Shown here piece by piece: positions 51,141 through 64,000 of a stretch of 64,000 bases of DNA. The stretch lies in contig JAUNHC010000003.1 of NCBI GenBank assembly GCA_030524175.1, positions 62,001 to 126,000 of the forward strand, given 5' to 3'. The DNA is from Eubacteriales bacterium. Its GTDB lineage: Bacteria > Bacillota > Clostridia > Lachnospirales > Lachnospiraceae. Under the pieces are notes generated by a model. That model was not told the origin of the DNA. It saw nothing but the letters and a program-made list of their open reading frames with translations, and made no database searches. The stretch's first letter is position 1, and every line of letters begins with the position of its first letter. The position numbers were made by a program, and so were the translations under genes.

Positions 51141-53516
51141 TTACCAAATGTTAATACGGTCTTCAGGTGCAACATACATTCCGTCACCTTCCTTAATATC
51201 ATAAGTGTCATAAAATTCCTGAAAATTAGAAAGCACCCGGTTACAGCGAAGATTATTTGGCGCATGCATGTCTGACTGGGCTGTTTCCAGCAAAGTATCA
51301 TAGTCAGCAACTCTCAGCCACTGGTTTGCATAGCTGCGGAAAAATGCATCATAATCCGGATCCTCCATTCCGGATAAAATCTCCAGGCCGCAGGCGATCC
51401 CCCCCATATCTGCAATATTCTCACTTAAGGTTTCCTGTCCGTCTGCCTTGATTCCCGGCAGTGCTTCATATCCTTCATAAAATTCTTCAACATTCTTGCA
51501 CAGCTTTTTAAAATGCTTATAATCTTCCTCTGCCCACCAGTCTCTTAAATTTCCCTGTGAGTCAAATTGTGCTCCCCCATCGTCAAACATATGTGTGATT
51601 TCATGTGCTATTGTACTTCCGATCGAACCCAGGTTTGTTTCAAAGGACTCATTCTTATCGTAAAACGGAGCCTGCAGAATCCCTGCCGGGAACAAAAGGG
51701 TGTTGGTGTTCCGATTTGCAGCCGCATTGACCGTATAAGCCGCCAAAGCAAACTTTCGGTTATCAACCGGCTGTCCCAGTTCCTTAAGCTGCTGTTTCCA
51801 TCTGTCCACTTCACAGGCAGCTGCATTTTCAAAAAAACTGCCGCCTTCCTCTTTTCCTCTGATCTCAGCTTTACTTAGCTGCCACTCATCAGGATAACCG
51901 ATCAGGACTGTAAGAGAATCCAGTTTTTTTATTGCTTCTTTTTTTGTGTCATCTTCCATCCAGTCCAGCCGTTCAATCCTCTTTTTGAACGTTTCAATCA
52001 TCAGATTTGTCATTTTTTCAATTTCTTCTTTTGATTCAGGTGAAAAATAACGTTTAACATAAAGCTGTCCCAGCTCCTCGGAAAGATAATTCTGCACTGC
52101 CAGATCCCCGGATGCAATACCGCCTGTGCCAAACTGTTCCGCCAGATCTTCACTTAGATAGGAACTGCATGCACTGAGAAGCACAATCTTCTCTATAGAT
52201 TTAAAAAGCTCCAGGTTCTCCTCCGTCACCCATTTCGCATATGCAGAAAACATTTTGTCATCTAATACCTGCATTTCAAAGGTATCCTTCACACCAATCG
52301 CAGTCATCAGCTCTGACGGTCTTGCCTGAGGCATCATCTCATCCAGCGTCTTAAATGTATAATAGTTCTGCTCCTTAAATTCCCCTGTTCCATCCGGCAA
52401 TTCCATATTTTGAGCTACGTCCTGCTCCAGCTCTAAAATTTTATCTGCATGACATTCCGCTTCCTCCTGACTTTCCCCTACTGCCACAAGCTGCTCCACC
52501 AATGCTGCACGGTATTCTTTATATTCCTCCTTCTCCGGATTTTCGTAATCACCTGCTGCCAGTCCTGGTGTCATGGTCAAGAGAAGCATGATTTTTTTGC
52601 TGCTGTCCTTGATATCTGTTGTTGCCAGCCCGGGAAACAGCCCATTTGCAAAATTCCCCAGCTCATTTACACACATGGCAATTGCCGCATTCAATTCAGA
52701 AAATGATCCTGCTTTGTCAACTGCCTCCAAGTATTTCTTCAACGGCTTTATGCCTGCCCGGTTACGCGCTTCAATGTTTTCAAAGTTGTTATATAAATCC
52801 CGGATTTTCTGTTCAGGGCTTCCTTTGGGATAGTCTTCCCCGCTGTTTACAATTTCATCGATCAGCTCCTTAAGCTGCTTGTCAGTCCTGTCATTCACCT
52901 CACCTGACCCACCAGCTGTTTCCCCGGTTTCCGGAATCTCTGTTGTATCCAGAAGCTTCTTATTCACAGCAGTGTAGAAATCATCCTTCTCATTGGTTCC
53001 AAATGCAGCATACAATCTGGCTGCAATCACTTCAGCATCTTTCATGGCTGCAGAAGCCTCCAGGAAATTATCTTCCCCTTCTTTCTCTCCATCTGAAACA
53101 TCTTCCAAATCCGATGCTGCCAGAATACCTCCATCTGCCAGATTTTTTAATGCATCCTGCGCCCATTCCGGTACTTTTGACAAATCCGGTACAGGGGGTA
53201 CAGTTTTCTCCGCATTTCCTTCCGGCTTTGGCAGTTTATCAAATGCACGCCCGGCAAGCACCAGCATCTGAAGGCGGTCAGCTTCCTCCGATTCCTTCAT
53301 TCCTTCCAAAATTTCCGAGCGCTGTGCAGGCTTCCCATATCCCGTTGCTGCCTTCATAAAAAAATCAGCCAGCTGTCCTGTTGTAACCTTTACAGTTTCC
53401 TGTGGAACAGCGTTTTCTTTTGCCAAAACCTTAACCCCGCCCCGAACACTGCTCCCTGTCAATACTATCATGATAAGAATCAAAGAAAGCCATCTTTTCA
53501 TTCTTCTGTATTTCAT
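51141..53516 (-). CDS. Secreted M13-family metallopeptidase (neprilysin/PepO type)
   Basis: 791-residue zinc endopeptidase. An N-terminal signal peptide (about 1-32: MKYRRMKRWLSLILIMIVLT, then a VLA-K cleavage-like site) is followed by a region (about 45-170) with an SLH-like stretch (VPEWAQDALKNLADGGIL), then the M13 N- and C-domains. The zinc motif HEITHMFD lies near residue 638, the ligand glutamate motif ENIADMGG near 702. AGAGGAG precedes the ATG. It probably acts outside the cell on peptides. It lies immediately upstream of a two-component system that may control it. Confidence 0.93.
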   Translation of the reverse strand: MKYRRMKRWLSLILIMIVLTGSSVRGGVKVLAKENAVPQETVKVTTGQLADFFMKAATGYGKPAQRSEILEGMKESEEADRLQMLVLAGRAFDKLPKPEGNAEKTVPPVPDLSKVPEWAQDALKNLADGGILAASDLEDVSDGEKEGEDNFLEASAAMKDAEVIAARLYAAFGTNEKDDFYTAVNKKLLDTTEIPETGETAGGSGEVNDRTDKQLKELIDEIVNSGEDYPKGSPEQKIRDLYNNFENIEARNRAGIKPLKKYLEAVDKAGSFSELNAAIAMCVNELGNFANGLFPGLATTDIKDSSKKIMLLLTMTPGLAAGDYENPEKEEYKEYRAALVEQLVAVGESQEEAECHADKILELEQDVAQNMELPDGTGEFKEQNYYTFKTLDEMMPQARPSELMTAIGVKDTFEMQVLDDKMFSAYAKWVTEENLELFKSIEKIVLLSACSSYLSEDLAEQFGTGGIASGDLAVQNYLSEELGQLYVKRYFSPESKEEIEKMTNLMIETFKKRIERLDWMEDDTKKEAIKKLDSLTVLIGYPDEWQLSKAEIRGKEEGGSFFENAAACEVDRWKQQLKELGQPVDNRKFALAAYTVNAAANRNTNTLLFPAGILQAPFYDKNESFETNLGSIGSTIAHEITHMFDDGGAQFDSQGNLRDWWAEEDYKHFKKLCKNVEEFYEGYEALPGIKADGQETLSENIADMGGIACGLEILSGMEDPDYDAFFRSYANQWLRVADYDTLLETAQSDMHAPNNLRCNRVLSNFQEFYDTYDIKEGDGMYVAPEDRINIW

Positions 53517-53735: not shown

Positions 53736-53899
53736 TAGAGCGTGTTTGAAAATTGCTTTCGGCAAGATGTGCGTCACAATTTGTGGGAGATCTGGCTCCG
53801 ATGAGGGAGGCGTAGTGGGCTACTCTGACTGAATTGGAGCCAAATCTCCTGCAAAGTGGGGCGTGCAGCTTGTCGGAATGAATTTTCAAATACGCTCTA
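53736..53899. mobile_element. Hairpin MITE-like element, 164 bases
   Basis: Terminal inverted repeats TAGAGCGTGTTTGAAAATT (53736-53754) and AATTTTCAAATACGCTCTA (53881-53899) match at 18 of 19 positions. The interior is also a long imperfect inverted repeat (for example GGGAGATCTGGCTCC on the left against GGAGCCAAATCTCC on the right), so the whole element can fold into one hairpin with its loop near 53812-53825. It has no credible coding capacity. It looks like a miniature inverted-repeat transposable element between the M13 gene and the CRISPR region. Confidence 0.75.
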
Positions 53900-53907
53900 G
53901 AACACAA

Positions 53908-54272: not shown

Positions 54273-54569
54273 ACCTAAATCCACACTTCCGCGTAGGAAG
54301 TGACAGCTGTGGTCCAGTCTGTATGGGTACAGGCAGAATTTCAATCCACACTTCCGCGTAGGAAGTGACGTAACACAACAACCTAAACCCCTATAATCAC
54401 CAAATTTCAATCCACACTTCCGCGTAGGAAGTGACTAATACAAGCAGGGTTGCAAATGCAAACGCCCAAATTTCAATCCACACTTCCGCGTAGGAAGTGA
54501 CTGATAGGTATCATCATATATTTATTATGCAAACAAAATTTCAATCCACACTTCCGCGTAGGAAGTGAC
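54273..54569 (-). CRISPR. CRISPR array, five repeats and four spacers (type III)
   Basis: A 32-base repeat occurs at 54273-54304, 54338-54369, 54404-54435, 54470-54501 and 54538-54569; spacers are 33, 34, 34 and 36 bases. On the minus strand each repeat starts GTCACTTCCTACGCGG, contains the stem CACTTCC/GGAAGTG and ends GTGTGGATTGAAAT; the final ATTGAAAT is the usual 8-base crRNA tag. Repeats 2-5 are identical. The leftmost has three changes in the six bases at its 5' plus-strand end, which marks it as the trailer end. The leader is therefore on the right, next to the cas genes, and the array is read leftward in the same direction as the cas operon. Confidence 0.97.
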
Positions 54570-54750
54570 AGCAAAATTACACAAAATTACCCCTAGTATT
54601 TTGACCTTTCCTATAAAGATTACCCTATTTTGGAACCAAATGCAACTTTATATTTTAATTTCCTCCATATTTTATGTATAAAATACCATTTATCAGGTGC
54701 GAATGTCCCAGTAAATTTATGTTCACTATAGGTTCGCACCTGACATTTAC
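54570..54750 (-). promoter_or_regulatory. CRISPR leader with promoter and a long inverted repeat
   Basis: AT-rich leader between the last cas gene and the first repeat. Minus-strand TTGCAT (54640-54645) and TAATCT (54617-54622) with 17-base spacing would start transcription about 40 bases before repeat 5, giving the array its own promoter. Upstream, CAGGTGCGAA (54694-54703) and TTCGCACCTG (54733-54742) are perfect 10-base arms around 29 bases; they may form the end of the cas transcript or a protein-binding dyad. They are not followed by a U-run. Confidence 0.7.
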
Positions 54751-56778
54751 TTATTTTTTCTTTATCAGTTTATATAAGGCCTTTTCCTGATCCAGCTCAT
54801 TATCCCTATCATCATCAGCATCAGGCAAAACCTTTAAAAAATTATAATTAAAATTATCATATTTAGATTTATTTAGTCGGAACCATTGATGAGATGCCCT
54901 GGCATTCTCCTTCTCCTCTCCCTTGGCACTCTTATCCTCCCCCAATGGATACATTACCTTCATTGGCCTTTCTTTCCAATTAGACATAATTTTAAGTTCG
55001 TTCGGAATTTCATCATCTATAAAACCATTTACACCAAAGAATTCTTTATAACTTATTCCGTCTCTTGTTCCTATTGTTATAATGCTCCAACCTCCTGTAT
55101 TCTCATCAATCTCCCGTATATGCAGACCGTCAACAATAATTTGTACACTTCCAAATCCCAAAGGCTTACCTCTGCCTATTTTATGTGCACAATCAGAACT
55201 TCCAAGATCTAATGCCCATTTTAATTGTAATAGTTGTTTTTTATCTAATTGTTCAAAGTACACACGAAAATGAAATTTAGGCTCTGACCCAATCTCTATA
55301 TCCGGTTTCAAAGGTCGTATTCTTTGTTGCATAGGGCTCACTTTATTACCCTTAAAACTATCCAGATCCACATCACTGTGCCAATAGTATTTACGTCCAC
55401 GGATTCTAGGATAGCTTTTGTTTAAAGCGATTCTCTCTTTACTGTTCTTTTTGCCATTTCTATATTTGTACTTATAATCATAAGTCCAATAACCCTGCAT
55501 ATTGTCTTCATCAAAAATTTCGTTTGACCTATAAGGAGACTCTGTATAAAATTCGACAGCACTGGGCCGTGGTTCACCCAATTCAGACAATACTATTGGT
55601 TTTTCAAACAAAATGCTGCTGTCTTTAACTGGATGAATCAATGTAGCATCTGTTATTCTTATCTTCGAACCATAGGCATAGGTCTCAGGTTTCTCGGTTT
55701 TATCCAGCATCCCAAATACTTGGCAGGCCGGACATAAATATTCATTATTACAAGGCTGATAGCCCCCGTTATTTCTCAGTAAATCTTCTACCGTTTTCTT
55801 AAATGCTTCTCTGCCGATACAAGCCGGGCACATATAAACACGGTTTTTATTATCCTTGGCATAGTATACGAGAATATAACTTCCATCTTCCAGCAATTCA
55901 AATTCCTTATACCACCCCTCTGTTTGCACCTTGCAATTCTTTGCCTTATCTCTATAATTTTCTAAAACTTTTTTCAAGAGGTCTACATCCTCATCGCAAA
56001 CTTTTATTGGTTCATTATTTGTTTTTCCTTCAATTTCATAAAAAATTGTCTCACAGTGTTTTCGATCTATGTATTCTCCTTTATGAAGATAACCTTTTCT
56101 AAAATTTGGATTTGACTCTCGTTTTTCTTTTGTAATATTTACGGTATGCTTCGTTACCAGATTATTTTTTCCGATACAAAACCATATTTCCTGACCTTCC
56201 TTCCAATTATCATAGATTTTTCTAGACACCTGCCTATTTACATTTTCTCCGTCATTTTGTTCCACACGCAGTCTTGCTTTTTTGCATTCTTTCAGATACC
56301 ACCCATCCTTTTCTTTATCAAAATATAAGATTCCTGGTATTTTAACCTCTCCACATCTTCTTGATAAATCTCTGCCTCCATCCACTGATGACATACACCC
56401 GTTAAAAGCCGCCTCATACACACTCCTGACCGGGCCCCTGATTTCACTGCCTGGAATAACCGGATTTGAGGGCGGTAACGGAGGCGTATTTAAATATGGT
56501 TTTTCATTAGACCAGTCATCATATGAAAAGAAATCATACCCTTTAAATTCCTCTTTATTTTCATCCCACTCTTTCTCTTCCAAAAGCCTCGCAGAAGAAG
56601 ATGTGTTGGGGATGAATAATGGAGTCAGAAGTCTCATTCCACAGTCAAAATAACCTGTGTAACAATCTTCATCCTTTATATCAGGCTGCTTACGCCGGCA
56701 TTTTTCTCCCAACGGTATAAAATTATAAGGATTTACAAATCTATAATTAAAATCTTCTTTTATTTTGTCATCTCCCAC
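54751..56778 (-). CDS. Type III-D RAMP protein, Cas7 with zinc-ribbon insertion (TIGR03986-like)
   Basis: 675-residue RAMP subunit of the crRNA complex. The Cas7 core starts RFVNPYNFIPLG and has the glycine loop IPGSEIRGPVRSVYEA (about 108-123), ending with the C-terminal IGRGKPLGFGSVQI (about 534-547). A large insertion (about 165-360) holds two CPAC knuckles (317-320 and 349-352), a likely zinc ribbon, the second within LCPACQVFG. The start is set at GTG 56776-56778 because GGGAGGG precedes it; an ATG 78 bases earlier lies deep in csx19. Matches the Cas7-insertion subunit of the III-D variant complex. Confidence 0.82.
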   Translation of the reverse strand: MGDDKIKEDFNYRFVNPYNFIPLGEKCRRKQPDIKDEDCYTGYFDCGMRLLTPLFIPNTSSSARLLEEKEWDENKEEFKGYDFFSYDDWSNEKPYLNTPPLPPSNPVIPGSEIRGPVRSVYEAAFNGCMSSVDGGRDLSRRCGEVKIPGILYFDKEKDGWYLKECKKARLRVEQNDGENVNRQVSRKIYDNWKEGQEIWFCIGKNNLVTKHTVNITKEKRESNPNFRKGYLHKGEYIDRKHCETIFYEIEGKTNNEPIKVCDEDVDLLKKVLENYRDKAKNCKVQTEGWYKEFELLEDGSYILVYYAKDNKNRVYMCPACIGREAFKKTVEDLLRNNGGYQPCNNEYLCPACQVFGMLDKTEKPETYAYGSKIRITDATLIHPVKDSSILFEKPIVLSELGEPRPSAVEFYTESPYRSNEIFDEDNMQGYWTYDYKYKYRNGKKNSKERIALNKSYPRIRGRKYYWHSDVDLDSFKGNKVSPMQQRIRPLKPDIEIGSEPKFHFRVYFEQLDKKQLLQLKWALDLGSSDCAHKIGRGKPLGFGSVQIIVDGLHIREIDENTGGWSIITIGTRDGISYKEFFGVNGFIDDEIPNELKIMSNWKERPMKVMYPLGEDKSAKGEEKENARASHQWFRLNKSKYDNFNYNFLKVLPDADDDRDNELDQEKALYKLIKKK

Positions 56779-57380
56779 TTTAAATCCCTCCCTATATTTT
56801 CCTTCCAAACACAAAAATCCACCATACGTAAGTCTGTCTGATACGCCATCCCCCATGAATCATTCTGCGGAGTACCCATAAATTTTCTTACGCAAACAGC
56901 CGCTTCCTTGTGTTCTCTCAGTTCTATCGGTACCCAAATCCGCGTCCCTCTTTCAGATGTTAAAAGGCTCCATTGTAAACTATCTATCACTTCACTTTTT
57001 TCAAATCTACCCCAGAGCTTCTGATTTTCATCTATTATAAATCCATACATCCCCTCAGCATTTTCTTTGCAGTCAAGGATACTGCCTCGAAACCTTCCAA
57101 TCCAATGCCCCTTTATTGGTGAAATCCGCAATTCACCAATTCTGTTAAAAATTCGCATTTCTTGCACATATCTCCAGTCCAAGGGTAATAATTTTTTTTC
57201 ATTATCCAGCTTTAATAAATAGCTTTGATCCTTATAAATCCCAAATCCTACTGCAAAATCCAAAACCACATAAATCCATGCTTCTTCAAAGTATTTTTTT
57301 ACTCGTTCTTTTACCGCTTCTACTGATACCTCATATATTTTTTCATAACCTTCAAACGTTTCATTTCCCTGCTGTATCAT
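56760..57380 (-). CDS. csx19: Type III-D accessory subunit Csx19-like
   Basis: 206-residue protein. The stretch RIFNRIGELRISPIKGHWIGRF (about 82-103) and IIDENQKLWGRF resemble the Csx19 (TIGR03984) family, a small subunit found in type III-D operons that binds the effector complex. GGGGAGGG precedes the ATG, which follows the Cas7-2x stop directly. Its end overlaps the next gene by 19 bases. Identification rests on motif memory and on operon position. Confidence 0.68.
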   Translation of the reverse strand: MIQQGNETFEGYEKIYEVSVEAVKERVKKYFEEAWIYVVLDFAVGFGIYKDQSYLLKLDNEKKLLPLDWRYVQEMRIFNRIGELRISPIKGHWIGRFRGSILDCKENAEGMYGFIIDENQKLWGRFEKSEVIDSLQWSLLTSERGTRIWVPIELREHKEAAVCVRKFMGTPQNDSWGMAYQTDLRMVDFCVWKENIGRDLKWEMTK

Positions 57381-58811
57381 TTATTCCCTCCCCGTACACC
57401 ACAAGGCTGCTGCCCGCATATATTCCTTTTTCATACTCTCATTCAACACATTACCATCCAGGTTAATCTCTGTGTTTTTTCCCTCAGGTTTACAAAATAT
57501 CCCACGCCCAACTGCTGTTTCTCCACCAATGGTCAAAATTCCAGCCTGCAAATCCGAAATTGCCCAAAGGAGCATTCCACAAATAGCATTACTACTATTC
57601 ATCTTATCACTTTTCTCATCTTTATCCTTTTTCCATCGAATTTTAAGTACAACTGTTCCATCCACCCATGGTACTTCTTCAAAAAGCGCGCCCTCAATAG
57701 TGCCTCCTGTAAAACGGTCTGTGGCAATTCTAGTCAAAGGTATGCCATGCCCGCCTTTGACCACAGCTTCTTCAAATATAATTCTTGAAGATAGCAGATT
57801 TTCTTCTTGCTGTTCTCCTTCTATCCATGTACCCCAAAAAGGCTCAAGTTGCTTTTGGGCCTCTACCCAACTTTGCAAATGAGACAGCTGTTTCACAATT
57901 TTTGCAATGTGACTGCGAAAAGCACCTGCAATACTACTGCCGGGTATCACTGCCTGCTCCCCCTTACCGCATACCGTCAGCTGTCCGTAATCTGGAATGT
58001 CTTTTTCTTTTCCAAAGGCTGCATTATAAACTCTCACCAGCAAGGTATAAGGAATTTTCAATGGAACCTCCATTAAATGTTCTGTGTGCATATATTCTTT
58101 TTCACCTATACCATCTTCGATTTCAATGGTTTCTGCCTGCAGAAATGCATTCTCATTGTCCCAATCCCAGTTAAGCCATTCCCCATATTCCTTTTCCATA
58201 TTAAACTTTTTCACTTTGGCACTTTCTATTGCCAATTTTCCAAATCCTCTTCTGTTTCTTGAACCTATACGGAGTTCTCCTATTGAAAATCCATAAATCC
58301 ACTGCCGGATCCAAAACTCATCCTCCTCCCAAGCCGCCTGGATATTTCCTTTCTTGTCCACAAAATCTTTTCGTTGGATCATTTCCAACCTTATACAAAA
58401 AGTAGCCTTTTCTTCAATTATTTGAATTTCATACTTAGCACCGGATTTTGGAGTTTTATTTTCACTTAATTTCACGCCATCCCGAATACTTGTAACCGCA
58501 TTTTTCAAAAAAACATCATAGCAGTATATCCTGCTCTGTCTATCATTACTCGCCCCGGGACTACCATCATAAGGGGTGCCAAAAAGCTTATCCGACTCTT
58601 TTTCCAAGCCTAATTCTTTATTATAAGCACGCAACGCACCAGCTAATCCACTCCCCGGAATGTAGGGCACACCTCTTGCATTCAATATTATATCTGCATC
58701 TGTATCTTCCTGTTCGCCGGAACCTACTGACAATGGAGAAGCAAGATACCCTGTGAGTTCCACACATAACCGCCCGCAAATCTTATTTCCTGCCTTTGTA
58801 TTATCATTCAT
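57381..58811 (-). CDS. Tandem Cas7 RAMP protein (Cas7-2x, Csm3-like)
   Basis: 476 residues with two Cas7 domains in tandem. Domain 1 (about 1-205): SPLSVGSGEQEDTDADI with several aspartates in the loop that normally holds the RNA-cleaving Asp, VPYIPGSGLAGALRAY (48-63), and GSRNRRGFGKL (183-193). Domain 2 (about 245-440): VIPGSSIAGAFRSHIA (288-303), IPLTRIATDRFTGGTIEGALFEE (357-379) and GGETAVGRGIF (429-439). IDRFTGG-type motifs are typical of Csm3/Cmr4 backbone subunits. It should line the crRNA backbone and cut target RNA. It overlaps the upstream gene by eight bases. Confidence 0.88.
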   Translation of the reverse strand: MNDNTKAGNKICGRLCVELTGYLASPLSVGSGEQEDTDADIILNARGVPYIPGSGLAGALRAYNKELGLEKESDKLFGTPYDGSPGASNDRQSRIYCYDVFLKNAVTSIRDGVKLSENKTPKSGAKYEIQIIEEKATFCIRLEMIQRKDFVDKKGNIQAAWEEDEFWIRQWIYGFSIGELRIGSRNRRGFGKLAIESAKVKKFNMEKEYGEWLNWDWDNENAFLQAETIEIEDGIGEKEYMHTEHLMEVPLKIPYTLLVRVYNAAFGKEKDIPDYGQLTVCGKGEQAVIPGSSIAGAFRSHIAKIVKQLSHLQSWVEAQKQLEPFWGTWIEGEQQEENLLSSRIIFEEAVVKGGHGIPLTRIATDRFTGGTIEGALFEEVPWVDGTVVLKIRWKKDKDEKSDKMNSSNAICGMLLWAISDLQAGILTIGGETAVGRGIFCKPEGKNTEINLDGNVLNESMKKEYMRAAALWCTGRE

Positions 58812-60906
58812 CCTTACTTCTGCACCTCGCTTTCCATTTTGCGTTTTCCAAATAAAGCTTCATAAATCCATATGTCTCACCTTCGCAAGGCTCTATAAAC
58901 TTTAAAATTCTTTGTCTTTTTTCTGCTTTATTTATATGTTCAACTTTGTTTTTAATCTGATCATAAAAATCTTTACTGTTTGCGTATCTTCTAAGCAGCT
59001 GTGACAACAACGAGATAGCCGACGACGGCGGAAGACATCCTTCACGAATGCCATCTAATTTCTGCATAGCTATCTTCTCACATTCCAACTGCACTTCCCG
59101 CAATTGGCGCAATCTGTCAATCAGGCCATTATCTCCATTCTCTACATGGTTTACTTCCTCTTGATCAAAAACGATTTCTCCTTCTTCTGATTTGTCCCAT
59201 AGTCTGACAGCTGCCTGTCCACATCCGTTTCCAACTAACGTTCCCCATCTGATATCTTCAATATCACAGGAGTTGATTTCTCTGTCTGTTTCCAAATAGT
59301 ATGTACTGCCCAGATCAATGGCTGGATATGATACTGACGGAAGCCTCCATTTGCTGTTATATCCACTATATGTCGTACTGCTGACCGCCACTTTTCTCAA
59401 TTCAATAACATTACACCCTAATGATTCCTTTAGTTCATTCTCAAACTCTGCTTTATCTAAAATATATTCACCAGTTTGCCTATCCCGGCTAATCATAGGG
59501 GTAAGAAACCACAGCATCCACTTAGTGCCTTTCCGTGAATCTTCTGCACTCTGGACCTTTTTATTTATATCTATGATTTTGAAAGAACAATTTCCATATT
59601 CAGCTGTCCTTGATTTACCCAGTCTCATGCGGTAGTCACAATCTTGCAGACATTTTACTAAACGCAGGATATCCTTTGCTTTTCCACCCCATGTTCCTGC
59701 GAAACTCTGCCCTTTTGACAATGCAGTATAGTTAAAAAATTCTCCTGTCGGAATAGTTGTATCTTCAGCTCGCTCATTTACAGCATGTCCGATTCCCCTA
59801 TCAATGGGGCGGGAGTGATGAAAATGAAGTTCCTTTGGGGGAGATACTACATGCATTTTCTTACCCTCCCACCATACCAATCCATGAACGTCCTTCCGTT
59901 TTCGTTCCTTATCCTTTTCTATATGGAACCATTTTCCCTCATCTTCTTTCATCTCTGCAACTGCTCTTGGGCACGGAAAATATATTTTACCATTCCGTTT
60001 TGGAAATCCATACCCGAACTGTACATCATCATGCAAAAATATTCTGCTGAAATCCTCGTCTTTATGTGCGTTTCCACCCAGCGAATACTTTTGGATATAC
60101 ATTCCTGCAAGAGCCCCAAGCATCGTGCTTCCTGGAATACAATTGCCTGTACCATCTATGACCACAGGAGAATTTAAATTGAGCTCATAGGACAAAATCA
60201 CTTCTTCCTCTGGATTATATTGATAAAGCAAGTTTGCCTTTCCATCCGAAACCCTATTGATAGATTGGAAGGTATTGCTTTCTGGTGATACTCTCTCCAA
60301 TTCACATTGGACTTCTCCCAAGCCTCTGGTTATTCCCATTCCCATATGACGAAGTCCTTTCACACAGTCCAGAAGTAAATCTTCCTCCTTTTGATTCAAC
60401 TCTCCTACTAGACTACAAACAAAATGAAACCCTGCAGGAACTACTTGAATAGTGCGCAGGGAGTGATTCTTTACAGCTCCAGTCTCTGAATCCATTGCTG
60501 TATGAGTTCGCATTCTGGTAAAAAATCCCTCAAAATACTCTTTCTCTGCACTTTCACATCTCTGTACTTCCATTTGAAAAAGCTTATAATCATCAATATC
60601 TATTTGATTTTCATCTTCAAACAAATATCCGGGAACTGAACATAGGTGCGCGTCACTGATGAATATGCCCTCAGCCCGCGCCGCCCCTGTTTTCCCAAAA
60701 ACTCCTTCTAATACAGACTGATCAATCAGCCCATTATCCCGCATTTCCTTCCCTTCGTTCACAAGGCAGCCTTTTATCCTTTTTGCGGGTATATAAGGAA
60801 TACCATTTTCCATTGCTGTTTTTATATTTGTTATGCCTGGCGCATTTTCGCCGGTAGCTGTACAAAGGTCACTTTTTAATTTAATCTTTAAATTCCATTT
60901 TTTCAT
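58804..60906 (-). CDS. csx10: Cas7-Cas5(Csx10)-Cas11-like fusion protein
   Basis: 700-residue fused effector subunit. An N-terminal Cas7-like domain (about 1-205) has IPYIPAKRIKGCLVNEG, the RMRTHTAMDSETGAVKNHSLR loop and MGMGITRGLGEVQ. A Cas5/Csx10-like domain (about 235-575) has NCIPGSTMLGALAGMYIQK, SRPIDRGIGHAVNERAEDT and RLGKSRTAEYGNCSF. The C-terminal 110 residues (about 590-700) are strongly helical and charged, as expected for a Cas11 small subunit. Normal Csx10 is about 400 residues, so this is a fusion. AGGAG precedes the ATG; it overlaps the end of cas10 by 26 bases. Confidence 0.83.
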   Translation of the reverse strand: MKKWNLKIKLKSDLCTATGENAPGITNIKTAMENGIPYIPAKRIKGCLVNEGKEMRDNGLIDQSVLEGVFGKTGAARAEGIFISDAHLCSVPGYLFEDENQIDIDDYKLFQMEVQRCESAEKEYFEGFFTRMRTHTAMDSETGAVKNHSLRTIQVVPAGFHFVCSLVGELNQKEEDLLLDCVKGLRHMGMGITRGLGEVQCELERVSPESNTFQSINRVSDGKANLLYQYNPEEEVILSYELNLNSPVVIDGTGNCIPGSTMLGALAGMYIQKYSLGGNAHKDEDFSRIFLHDDVQFGYGFPKRNGKIYFPCPRAVAEMKEDEGKWFHIEKDKERKRKDVHGLVWWEGKKMHVVSPPKELHFHHSRPIDRGIGHAVNERAEDTTIPTGEFFNYTALSKGQSFAGTWGGKAKDILRLVKCLQDCDYRMRLGKSRTAEYGNCSFKIIDINKKVQSAEDSRKGTKWMLWFLTPMISRDRQTGEYILDKAEFENELKESLGCNVIELRKVAVSSTTYSGYNSKWRLPSVSYPAIDLGSTYYLETDREINSCDIEDIRWGTLVGNGCGQAAVRLWDKSEEGEIVFDQEEVNHVENGDNGLIDRLRQLREVQLECEKIAMQKLDGIREGCLPPSSAISLLSQLLRRYANSKDFYDQIKNKVEHINKAEKRQRILKFIEPCEGETYGFMKLYLENAKWKARCRSKDE

Positions 60907-62509
60907 TGACCTGCTTCTCCTGTATATTTAATAAATCCTCCAACAGTTCCGTTCTACATAATCCCCGCAGTTCCAGTGCATCATAAAGAGAAGAATTTCT
61001 CCAATCATCTGTCTGTATCAGTTCCTCAATATTGTATTTACGGGATAAAAACTCCTTTTGCAACAGCTTCATTTGTTCATCCCCTTCCAGCATCGCACCA
61101 TATATCCTGTGAAGTCTGTTAGACGGCCATTTGTCTTCCATTGCTTTTATAGTATCGTATAAATAAACCAATGCATCGTTTCTAACTCTCTTATTTTGTA
61201 CAGTCACACAATAAGGGCGCATCTGCCATTCTTCATGTTTTTGAACACCGCCCACCTCGCTTCCTTTTAACACACAAAAATCCAAGAAACTACTGTCCTG
61301 ACAGTTATTCTTCTCCTTCCGTTCCTTATACCACTTCTTTTTTGCTCTGGAGCAAGTCTCCTCTGCAATGTGATAGGCCTCAGAAAAGGGAAAGTGGCTG
61401 TGTACAAAAGCAATTCCAGCACAAGCTGTGATTTTTTTATTCTCCTCTTTCTGACAATTTGAAAGCTCATTCAAAAATCCTGCTGCAATGGGTATTGCCA
61501 AATCGGCAGCACACAAGAATGTAAAATCATCTCCGTCTAGTATAACTGGTCTCAGGGGAAATATCGTCCTCTCTTCATCATCCCTGCTTAAAAGCTTCGT
61601 ATGATTCTCCAGCTTTAAAAGTACTGCTCTATAAGCATTCTTAAAAATACCAGTTATCTCTTTTGATTTTTGTCTCAGCACCGAAACGGCTACTGCATAT
61701 TCTGTCTCTGTATTCAAAACCTCCTGAATTTGCCGTCCCATTCCATTGCCATCAATATGAACAACTGCAATATAACTGTTTTCGCAGTTTTTACTACATA
61801 ACTGTTCCATTTCCACTGGATAATCATAATTATTAATTTTATCAAGCATGGGATACATTTTTTTATCTTTATTATGTCTTGACCACTGATAAGTCTTCCA
61901 TTTCTGATATCTCATCTCAGTCATATTTTTAATAACATAGGATTCGAACTTATCACCGCTCCCATCTTTTTTATATTTATAGCATCTGGTGATTGGCTGA
62001 TGATCCATATTGTCTTGTTCCACTACTGGAAATGGAGAATACACTGGCTGTCGAATCATATCGGCCTTAATTCCGGCTAAATTCCTACCTAACTCCTCCA
62101 TATCACTTTTAAAATTTTGTAACTCGGTTTTTTCTACATATGCTGATACCAAATAAATACCCTGACAATTTTCTGCAACTTTTCTTCCCAAACTCTGGCT
62201 TACTTTTTCAAATTCTTGTCTGCCACGGAATAATACCACTGCATTTCCACCGCCAATATATACGATTTCAGCTTTAAGATTCTCCTTTTCTAAAATACAC
62301 AGTCTATCTTCTTTTTCCCAGTCTAAAACATAATCCTGCGGAAAAATAATTTCTTCCTTAATAGAATCCGGAAGAAATTCTTCTAAAATCCTAGTCACCT
62401 GACAAGATGCTCCAACATTTTCCTGAAGTCTGTTCGATGCAAATATGTATGATTGGATACCGCTAACATCAAACTTTGCCAGAATATACGGATCACTTTT
62501 TCTATTCAT
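60881..62509 (-). CDS. cas10: Cas10 (type III large subunit), no HD domain, DGDD palm motif
   Basis: 542-residue Cas10/Cmr2-like protein. It begins directly with the first Palm domain (FDVSGIQSYIFASNRLQENVGAS, 13-35; IGGGNAVVLF, 85-94), so the N-terminal HD nuclease is missing. The second Palm has VVHIDGNGMGRQI (249-261) and LRPVILDGDDFTFLC (319-333). The usual cyclase motif GGDD is DGDD here (325-328): the metal-binding aspartates stay but the first glycine is lost. Cyclic oligoadenylate synthesis is therefore uncertain. A helical C-terminus follows. It starts eight bases before the stop of the upstream gene. Confidence 0.9.
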   Translation of the reverse strand: MNRKSDPYILAKFDVSGIQSYIFASNRLQENVGASCQVTRILEEFLPDSIKEEIIFPQDYVLDWEKEDRLCILEKENLKAEIVYIGGGNAVVLFRGRQEFEKVSQSLGRKVAENCQGIYLVSAYVEKTELQNFKSDMEELGRNLAGIKADMIRQPVYSPFPVVEQDNMDHQPITRCYKYKKDGSGDKFESYVIKNMTEMRYQKWKTYQWSRHNKDKKMYPMLDKINNYDYPVEMEQLCSKNCENSYIAVVHIDGNGMGRQIQEVLNTETEYAVAVSVLRQKSKEITGIFKNAYRAVLLKLENHTKLLSRDDEERTIFPLRPVILDGDDFTFLCAADLAIPIAAGFLNELSNCQKEENKKITACAGIAFVHSHFPFSEAYHIAEETCSRAKKKWYKERKEKNNCQDSSFLDFCVLKGSEVGGVQKHEEWQMRPYCVTVQNKRVRNDALVYLYDTIKAMEDKWPSNRLHRIYGAMLEGDEQMKLLQKEFLSRKYNIEELIQTDDWRNSSLYDALELRGLCRTELLEDLLNIQEKQVNEKMEFKD

Positions 62510-63448
62510 CTTTTTCTCCTTCTTTTGATTCTGTTAAAATTTTATTAAAACATTGGGCATAAGCTCGATGTGGGAACAACATAGGATTGTTCAATACCAT
62601 GAGAAGTTGATTTAATTGAAAAATCAGGGACAGGAGCACATTTTCTTCTAACTTACCATCTTTGTTTATCTGTTCAACTTTCAGTTCCTGAAGGAATTTT
62701 TCTCTCTGTCTGCCTGAAGTTTCCACAATTTTAATGGCACCCTTTTTTCTAGCATCTTTCTCACCTGCCAGCTTCACATCATCCATATTATCTAACGCAT
62801 GATTCAAAGAATAATGCCATTTAACTAATGAGTTTTCTTCACCTCTTATATATTTATACAATTTCTTATCATCTTCATTTACTGACAATATTATGTCAAA
62901 TTCATCTTTAAAATTCGAAAGTTTACCCATGGAAGCCATTGCACATAGAATTAAAATAGGCCGTGTTGCAGTCTGTGTAACACTATGAGGAGTCATGACA
63001 CTATTATCCACCAGCTTCGTTGCTAATCTTGCTACTGAGTCCATTGAAGTGATCAGCCTCTCTATTTCTTCTTTCCATTCTTTTACATTCGATTTATCAA
63101 TTCTTTTTGATTTGCACTGAACCACAGCAGCCACAGCCTCAATTGGAATAAATTTAATCTTTCCATAATTAAAAATATATGGCGTATACATCTCATCAAA
63201 AATTGCTAAGTCAACTTCCTTAGATTTGTGTCCATAAGAGTCAATAATAAACACACTCTGTTCAATACAATATTTTTTGGGAATGATCATTTCAAATAAT
63301 GACTTCCATACGTTTTCCCTATATGCACCTACTGTTGGGTAATGATTCGAAACATTTAATAATATCTGGTTTACAATCGACTCTTCGATTTTTCATAATT
63401 ATCAGCCAGCATTCCTATAAGATCTTTATATGTTACTTCTTTCGTCAT
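62502..63448 (-). pseudogene. DUF6602/restriction-nuclease-like gene with a -1 frameshift
   Basis: The intact-looking part (62502-63290, 262 residues) contains FIIDSYGHKSKEVDLAIFDE and FIPIEAVAAVVQCKSKR, like the D...ExK core of PD-(D/E)xK nucleases and DUF6602 proteins. Upstream in the same frame, 63291-63390 also translates sensibly (HYPTVGAYRENVWKSLFE), but without a start. A good start (GGGGAG, ATG at 63448) reads MTKEVTYKDLIGMLADNYEK in another frame and stops after five more codons. One extra A in the run at 63389-63393 (five T on the plus strand) would join both. So this is a frameshifted gene or a base-calling error. It lies between cas6 and cas10. Confidence 0.62.
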
Positions 63449-63462
63449 CTCATACTCCCCTC

Positions 63463-64000
63463 TCATCTGTCATAAGATACCTCATAGTGACCAAAACCAA
63501 TAGTTGCACCTTTACCAATCCTCAGATATTTCCCTACCTCTAAAATTGGCACAAACATTGATAAATCTCCTTCATATAAAGCCCATCCTGTTTTGGATGG
63601 AAGTTCCAGCTTTCCTTCCTTTTGGTTCATAGAATACCTTTTAAAGGGCACCTCCCTCCAATATTCACTTAAAGTTTTCACTTCTTTAGCCTGCTCCAAT
63701 AGTCGTTTTTCATCCCACTCTAATTGAAATTCTGTATAAGTGGTCGTCAACAGCGATATCCTGCGCATTAGAAACTTAAGCAACATGTCAAACGGCAGTC
63801 TTTCAAACAGTTTTTTTCCCGATACTACTCTAAGGGGTGTGTCAAAAAACAGGCTGACATAAGAGGCATTTCTTTCCATAATCTGTAACGGCCTGGGGGA
63901 AAGATTACGAATCCAGATTTTGCCCCCGGCATATATCACCTTACCTGTATCCGGATCCACTACCTGCATCAAACGGAAGGAAAGTCGTTCTGCTCCCCAG
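63463..64000 (-). CDS. cas6: Cas6 pre-crRNA endoribonuclease (5' end beyond window)
   Basis: About 178 C-terminal residues are visible; the frame is open to the right edge (WGAERLSFRLMQVVDPDTG), so the start is outside. The C-terminus LRIGKGATIGFGHYEV is the conserved glycine-rich loop of Cas6 RAMP nucleases, and RNLSPRPLQIMERNASYVSLFFDTPL also fits. Cas6 cuts the array transcript within each repeat, at the base of the CACTTCC stem, leaving the ATTGAAAT tag. It is the most upstream visible gene of the cas operon; 14 bases separate its stop from the ATG of the frameshifted gene. Confidence 0.85.
   Translation of the reverse strand, partial: WGAERLSFRLMQVVDPDTGKVIYAGGKIWIRNLSPRPLQIMERNASYVSLFFDTPLRVVSGKKLFERLPFDMLLKFLMRRISLLTTTYTEFQLEWDEKRLLEQAKEVKTLSEYWREVPFKRYSMNQKEGKLELPSKTGWALYEGDLSMFVPILEVGKYLRIGKGATIGFGHYEVSYDR

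Follow-up and report, generated by a model that had tools for sequence, protein, structure and literature searches.

A type III-D CRISPR locus of III-Dv architecture in a Lachnospiraceae genome and a suggested association of nucC with a lost RNA-cleavage residue

Introduction

The closest described system to the locus reported here is type III-Dv of Synechocystis sp. PCC 6803, which is located on plasmid pSYSA and represented in the Protein Data Bank (PDB) by 8s9t, 8s9u, 8s9v and 8s9x; a III-Dv complex is expected to hold one copy of each subunit on a 37-nt CRISPR RNA. The locus itself, a type III operon with a clustered regularly interspaced short palindromic repeats (CRISPR) array and a nucC gene, lies on the minus strand at one end of a 64,000-nt stretch of a Lachnospiraceae genome, referred to below as the window (bases 62001-126000 of the 219,911-base contig JAUNHC010000003.1; genome of 5.95 Mb in 119 contigs). 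According to the published account of the Synechocystis complex (PMC11026444), D26 of Cas7-Cas5-Cas11 and D33 and D246 of Cas7-2x each serve one cut of the target RNA, and mutation of each aspartate abolishes its own cut. With a 3′ label the D26 cut appears as one predominant event, which was read as a sign that it is faster; in the post-cleavage complex, the 3′ end of the target is gone and Cas10 is back in its target-less conformation. The same source names Cas10 R490 and H487 as helpers of this Cas10-proximal site, D140 as the residue holding a second metal, and the insertion of Cas7-insertion as a proposed seed gate. We call the Cas10-proximal site (Synechocystis D26) site 3, and we regard the possession of three catalytic aspartates as a property of the Synechocystis complex, not as part of the subtype definition.

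Vibrio metoecus III-B offers a second point of comparison. In its description (PMC8682760), NucC is coupled to a type III complex and Cas10 is without an HD domain, both as in the window; however, it is of a different subtype, and its Cmr4 has the aspartate D26, on which the cuts depend. Its target-RNA cleavage is unusually slow, and a prolonged NucC activation has been suggested by the authors. In another III-B study (PMC9368842), RNase-dead Cas7 (Cmr4) led to dormancy or death. The type III-E effector Cas7-11 (gRAMP) is one polypeptide, whereas the window encodes a multi-protein system with Cas10 and Csx19; the Cas7-insertion protein of the window nevertheless matches the C-terminal half of Cas7-11, both by profile and by fold.

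Subunit composition and predicted folds

A preliminary description of the window had named cas6, cas10, a Cas7-Cas5-Cas11-like fusion, a two-domain Cas7, csx19 and a Cas7 with an insertion as the genes of a III-Dv-like system. All six are indeed found there on the minus strand, as are the nucC gene, the insertion domain, the presumed leader and the array described below, with family matches far from chance for the genes. A nucC gene that had been overlooked lies between cas6 and cas10, and the operon reads cas6, nucC, cas10, cas7-cas5-cas11, cas7-2x, csx19 and cas7-insertion, followed by a five-repeat array. The missing catalytic aspartate and the type I-C-like repeat had likewise gone unmentioned. 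The fusion gene (58804..60906) encodes a 700-aa protein of PADLOC family Cas5_IIId (PDLC02089, E 9e-228). Its family profile finds the III-Dv Cas7-Cas5-Cas11 chain 8s9t_A as the top PDB match over profile positions 4-695 (E 3e-53), an identity that a single-sequence phmmer search of the PDB, which returned no match, had left to the profile to resolve. The 476-aa product of cas7-2x (57381..58811), with two Cas7 domains, belongs to PADLOC Cas7_IIId (PDLC02112, E 1.5e-167), and the top PDB match of its family profile is the III-Dv Cas7-2x chain 8s9t_D, both halves being matched in two stretches (E 4e-52). The 701-aa Cas7-insertion protein (54751..56856) is assigned to a further Cas7_IIId family (PDLC02109, E 2e-191) and to TIGR03986 (2e-73); against the PDB, its family profile ranks III-E Cas7-11 chains (best 4e-66) above the III-Dv Cas7-insertion chain 8s9t_E, which comes next (4e-57). 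Csx19 (56760..57380, 206 aa) passes the NCBIfam cut-off of TIGR03984 (1.6e-33), and its single-sequence phmmer search of the PDB gave nothing useful.

The cas10 gene (60881..62509) encodes 542 aa with the cyclase motif DGDD, matching PADLOC Cas10d (9e-147) and PDB chain 8s9t_C (3e-17). No HD-domain family appears among its Pfam matches up to E 1, a list from which filters may drop weak matches. Judged by its sequence, it is a III-D type Cas10 that has a cyclase motif and is predicted to be without an HD domain, as in III-Dv.

Folds were predicted for the 700- and 701-aa proteins, Cas7-2x and Cas10 being identified from profiles. The AlphaFold2 model of the 700-aa protein (mean predicted local distance difference test, pLDDT, 82) consists of a Cas7-like part at about residues 1-205, a Cas5-like part at about 235-580 and five C-terminal helices at 594-694, with domain names assigned by us from the matches. 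The four PDB folds most similar to it (Foldseek) are the four III-Dv Cas7-Cas5-Cas11 chains A, with a template modelling score (TM-score) of 0.62-0.64 by query and 16-17% identity; the root-mean-square deviation of about 10 indicates that the domains match while their mutual placing is loose. The model of the 701-aa protein (pLDDT 84) matches Cas7-11 (TM-score 0.54 by query) and III-Dv chain E (0.50).

The locus is thus confirmed, by profiles and by the predicted folds of these two proteins, as a type III-D member with III-Dv architecture. Type III-D is indicated by the PADLOC Cas5_IIId and Cas10d families and the Csx19 profile, the NCBIfam Csx10 model giving only a weak match below its cut-off; the III-Dv architecture is indicated by a one-chain Cas7-Cas5-Cas11, a double Cas7 (by profile), a Cas7 with a large insertion and csx19. 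The fused subunit set proposed at the outset therefore holds up. Neither of the two proteins for which single RAMP (repeat-associated mysterious protein) folds had been named as contrary evidence appears to have one, the 700-aa model having several parts and the 476-aa profile matching both halves of Cas7-2x. A reading of the locus as ordinary III-A or III-B with only apparently fused genes would account for the weaker similarity to Csm3 and Cmr4, seen with profiles as well as chains, but the III-D profiles and III-Dv chains are best by far, and we reject this explanation as having practically no chance of being right. A type III-E single-polypeptide effector was also considered and rejected, the proteins being separate and Cas10 present.

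Compared with Synechocystis III-Dv, the window has the same subunit set and the same gene order from cas10 to cas7-insertion, and the fused chains are alike by profile, a likeness that the predicted folds bear out for two of them. The differences are as follows. First, identity is 22-26% in the best aligned parts, and the fused forms do not make up one clade. Second, Synechocystis has an aspartate at site 3, whereas the window has an asparagine. Third, cas6 and nucC lie upstream in the window, whereas the Synechocystis system is described with Csm6, Csx1 and adaptation genes (PMC11026444).

The nucC gene

The nucC gene (62502..63448) belongs to the NucC family (PADLOC 1.4e-65; PDB NucC 5e-8). 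It is frameshifted: 25 codons from the ATG at 63448 lead to a stop at 63373-63371, and the remainder lies in another frame, a 262-aa open reading frame (ORF) from the ATG at 63290. The genome thus holds no intact nucC frame that we could find, a whole-genome search for a second copy having returned the broken copy as sole match. Either the window copy of the system has lost its NucC effector, or the frameshift is an assembly error. The ExK of the PD-(D/E)xK active site is catalytic; in the window, as in eight of nine aligned proteins, the presumed active site has QxK in place of ExK.

For comparison, 101 loci were collected, of which nine were dropped as near copies (Cas10 ≥97% identical) to leave 92; their genes are labelled by profiles built for this analysis, not by curated annotation. 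nucC, scored at a cut-off of 1e-15, is present in 16 of the 92. Its relatives are open frames of 305-380 aa, and all 13 relatives in the fused NucC clade have cas6 immediately ahead of nucC, which is followed directly by cas10. The NucC-linked fused loci of Bacillota, such as Murimonas intestini (L108) and Faecalicatena (L109, L110), share the order cas6-nucC-cas10-fusion-cas7-2x-csx19-cas7-insertion with the window, which is 51-62% identical to Murimonas; unlike the window, they have nucC as an open frame. One Clostridia metagenome-assembled genome (L117:2640-4824) has a tandem pair of nucC genes before cas10.

The broken nucC, the short array and the lack of adaptation genes nearby may be taken to mean that the system is decaying in this strain. 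In favour of decay, no second nucC was found in the genome, the array has five repeats, and the sole Cas1 match lies on another contig. Yet all five genes of the complex have open frames, with 51-62% identity to their Murimonas counterparts. Relatives whose nucC is open may likewise have an array of five repeats or be without cas1, and a frameshift can stem from an error of assembly; decay is an unlikely explanation in our view.

Loss of the Cas10-proximal cleavage residue

The fusion protein of the window has Asn27 at the position of Synechocystis D26, whereas aspartate is kept at both Cas7-2x sites, the equivalents of D33 and D246; two of the three catalytic aspartates are thus retained. The Asn27 assignment rests on sequence alignment because loop 19-27 is modelled at low confidence. 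Among the collected loci, site 3 is readable in 91 (L080, in which it is unreadable, was left out of this count), and its aspartate is kept in 81. All 10 loci without it belong to the 16 that carry nucC, and none to the 75 that do not. A weak, partial nucC-like match in L135 (profile 2-80) falls below the cut-off, and counting it gives 10 of 17 vs 0 of 74. At the other two sites, loss of aspartate is found in four of 71 loci without nucC vs two of 16 with nucC (site 2) and in four of 71 vs one of 16 (site 1), and these losses are not tied to nucC.

Within the window's clade, the site-3 position varies among N, S and H. L099 has Gln at all three sites, and L170, a relative of L099 outside the counted set, has Gln at site 3 and Pro at site 2; site 1 of L170 was judged only by its likeness to L099, and the small alignment misplaced that column, the window's own Asp included. 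The Cas10 position of R490 is occupied by Arg in 56 of 74 non-nucC loci vs one of 16 nucC loci, and by Tyr in 12 of the 16. This pattern fits a weaker site 3, although a single clade accounts for most of these loci.

Together, the counts are suggestive of site-3 loss and nucC belonging together, and this suggested association is the new point of the analysis. No title or abstract opening describing it was found in the literature, most subscription journals being outside the coverage of the search. A literature query on "type III-D" with Lachnospiraceae surfaced only type VI-A systems and reverse transcriptase-Cas1 work.

Proposed signalling

From the genes, predicted folds, residues and their distribution, we infer a cyclase product, a cleavage pattern, a signalling time and a cell fate as follows. 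Cas6 would cut the array transcript, and Cas10, Csx19, Cas7-Cas5-Cas11, Cas7-2x and Cas7-insertion would assemble on the CRISPR RNA. Binding of a matching foreign RNA would turn on the Cas10 cyclase (DGDD), yielding cyclic oligoadenylate, most likely cyclic triadenylate (cA3), which would activate NucC as the likely receiver, and NucC would destroy DNA inside infected cells. In the window's clade, the Cas10-adjacent Cas7 site is without its catalytic aspartate, so that cleavage is expected at the two more distant sites only. Without the Cas10-proximal cut, the target end that keeps Cas10 active would be let go more slowly, giving a longer signal, and longer signalling would suit an abortive-type effector. 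The slow cutting of the Vibrio III-B/NucC complex and the effect of RNase-dead Cmr4 noted above are in keeping with such a scheme. We regard it as probable, with moderate confidence, that the system is a NucC-coupled III-D effector of III-Dv architecture, in whose clade the loss of site 3 prolongs cyclic-oligoadenylate signalling.

Several observations weigh against this reading. The plain site-3 count overstates the case because loci within a clade are kin: only two independent losses are needed on the tree. Both fall in NucC clades, which make up 21% of the branch length, so that two of two losses would land there by chance with a probability of about 0.04, and an independent-pairs test of site-3 loss vs nucC, which needs about six or more informative pairs to reach significance, is not significant. 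A search for further nucC lineages in 63 and 113 genomes of two orders added one new locus, L170, which is kin of L099. Six of the 16 nucC loci keep the site-3 aspartate, L114 (Clostridium sp. Marseille-P2415), L116, L117, L118 and L141 of the Bacillota among them. The H487 position of Cas10 is His in eight of the ten loci that lost site 3 vs three of 74 non-nucC loci, which is not what a simple decay of site 3 would give, and the D140 position is Asp in only two of 75 non-nucC loci (three of the 75 being gaps), so site-3 chemistry is not uniform. In Vibrio, abolishing cleavage made little difference in the assay, which the authors explain by the slow rate (PMC8682760). The two remaining distant sites may suffice to end the signal, the QxK at the presumed active site suggests that NucC activity is not assured, and the four spacers of the array have no convincing target.

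Some of these points lead to an alternative in which the architecture is as described but the loss of the aspartate is unrelated to NucC, being neutral or lineage-specific, and two sites are enough for shut-off. With just two independent losses, and with six non-nucC loci lacking Asp at site 1 or 2, which shows that sites are also lost where nucC is absent, this alternative deserves serious weight. It does not readily explain why site 3 is lost in none of the 75 loci without nucC, why the residues at all three sites are replaced in L099, or why N, S and H alternate in the window's clade, as expected once a constraint is lifted. We therefore hold it to be possible but the weaker account.

Prolonged signalling in the window's clade, if correct, leads to a wider and more tentative proposal, which we would advance as a conjecture rather than expect to hold. 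NucC-coupled III-D systems may dismantle the type III timer, site 3 being lost first and, in one lineage, all three sites (L099, and probably L170); a single encounter with RNA would then yield a prolonged cyclic-oligoadenylate signal, and the complex would act as a near-irreversible suicide trigger rather than as RNA-cutting immunity. L099 and L170 are NucC-linked III-D loci with separate cas7 and cas5-cas11, and their complexes are predicted to bind, not cut, target RNA. Complexes that occur in nature with the Cas10 cyclase motif but without one or all of the cleavage residues make the question of cleavage vs signalling length testable, and they lead to the further question of whether signalling length is matched to the effector.

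Distribution and origin of the fused architecture

The preliminary description had further proposed a Lachnospiraceae-type host, which agrees with the nearest named relatives, Murimonas, Faecalicatena and Lactonifactor, and had held that the find would widen the range of the fused form. The fused form is indeed present, but it is not isolated: at least 14 of 397 same-family genomes, the window genome included, carry the fusion as one open frame, and the PADLOC profiles already fit it. Matches to the Cas5_IIId family were obtained in 20 of the 397 same-family genomes and in 48 of 398 same-phylum genomes, many of the latter partial (window genome counted in both). Of the 20, 18 were inspected, giving 14 fused, three separate and one unclear; G267 and G369, with partial matches, were left out. 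Named relatives include Murimonas intestini (60% identity), Faecalicatena, Lactonifactor, Bacilliculturomica and Clostridium symbiosum, and no relative of the fusion was found in phages and viral contigs. Apart from Synechocystis, the fused loci found belong to Bacillota by name or kinship, as might be influenced by the scan for named loci, which used patterns conserved in fused Bacillota proteins and is biased towards them.

Type III-D loci with separate cas7 and cas5-cas11 have the same subunits with the fusion apart. A separate cas7 occurs on plasmids of Planktothrix and Nostoc and in Persicobacter, Thermodesulfovibrio, Planctomycetes, Deltaproteobacteria, a Heimdallarchaeote and others, mostly as a gene of its own for 186-260 aa (374 aa in L100). 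Of 36 loci of this kind that were counted, only L098 and L099 have nucC.

A tree was built from Cas10 and Cas7-2x for 77 of the 92 loci, the other 15 being omitted for a missing or short Cas10 or Cas7-2x. It is a quick, unrooted tree, supported only by the Shimodaira-Hasegawa-like approximate likelihood-ratio test (SH-aLRT), with long branches at L099, L107, L076, L104 and L098. It contains a large fused clade of 42 rows (SH-aLRT 100). The other fused rows are L083, L085 and L086, which stand together, L087, L101-L103, and Synechocystis, whose place is unsure because of long branches. The fused/separate state needs five changes on the tree, of which at least three are forced by its starred branches, and a single clade of all fused rows is rejected (77 loci; 197 log units worse; approximately unbiased test, p-AU 6e-6). 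Common descent of the fused state with Synechocystis is thus not supported.

Since the fused rows are not one clade and relatives in Planktothrix and Nostoc have a separate Cas7, "III-Dv" denotes an architecture arrived at on more than one occasion (or repeatedly lost) rather than a single lineage. The earlier idea of the fused architecture as a single old trait, or as one spread from a single source, is not supported, given the same test and the same separate Cas7 genes. Repeated fusion seems simpler than repeated splitting because separate genes are spread over many phyla. A fusion ancestral to this III-D branch, with separate genes arising by repeated splitting, is rather improbable: change counts cannot separate gain from loss on an unrooted tree, and a scan with fused Bacillota patterns samples fused forms elsewhere thinly, but separate cas7 genes are found in many phyla and an archaeon, whereas the fused loci found are, Synechocystis aside, Bacillota by name or kinship. 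Should the fusion have several origins, it is a recurrent solution rather than a single fossil step, and Synechocystis alone cannot stand for the III-E ancestor.

Insertion domain of Cas7-insertion

The insertion domain of the window's Cas7-insertion protein covers approximately residues 165-350 (55807..56364), aligned to Synechocystis residues of about 224-455. Among 77 Cas7-insertion proteins of 450-900 aa, the insertion stretch has at least 193 residues in 73 vs 63-81 in four. Most of it is missing in these four, namely the NucC-linked Bacillota loci L109, L111 and L113, and L084, which occupy three places on the tree, suggesting about three losses of the domain. These four of 77 relatives offer a natural test of the proposed seed-gate role. 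Chain D of PDB 9wxh (1235 residues, TIGR03986 family) matches the Cas7-2x profile at 16-463 and the Cas7-insertion profile at 517-1202; judged by these matches, it looks as if Cas7-2x and Cas7-insertion were fused in one protein.

CRISPR array and adaptation

The array (54273..54569) has five 32-nt repeats and four spacers of 33-36 nt, with limits set by eye. Its repeat has five matches within three mismatches vs none expected by shuffling, and the repeat at 54273 is degenerate. The gap between operon and array (54575..54750) is presumed to be the leader from its position and from the degenerate terminal repeat. An exact-repeat scan found arrays in 10 of 16 NucC relatives, all ending GTGGATTGAAA(T/C).

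A 233-base query of the four spacers and three intervening repeats had no match among 50,697 phage records; against plasmids it gave four matches, all weak (best E 0.06), and exact 21-23-base cores of the four spacers, searched for exact matches only, found nothing in viral contigs.

Upstream of the operon, the ORFs listed up to a distance of about 10 kb show no adaptation genes. A whole-genome search for Cas1 gave one match (PF01867), on contig C100, where L166:4069-12911 holds an operon that is by eye type I-C-like, with cas1 and a short array. Compared by eye, the III-D repeat agrees with the repeat of this array at 29 of 32 positions, and adaptation genes of the type I-C-like operon may supply the III-D array in trans. 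Among 16 NucC loci searched for cas1 (L170 included, the window not), only Saccharibacillus L141 gave a match, many of the stretches being short.

Neighbouring features

The 3′ part of cas6 (63463..64000) closes the window (Pfam CRISPR_Cas6 5e-12; PADLOC Cas6 2e-38); the gene extends 371 bases beyond the window end, and its full ORF has 302 aa (L002:1463-2371). Upstream of the operon lies a gene that by eye resembles glutamine synthetase. Beside the array, window positions 53740-53900 may hold, by eye, a small palindromic or transposon-like element. Also near the array, on the minus strand at 51141-53516, a 791-aa ORF resembles by eye a secreted M13-type metallopeptidase, its HEITH motif being what we take to be a sign of that family.

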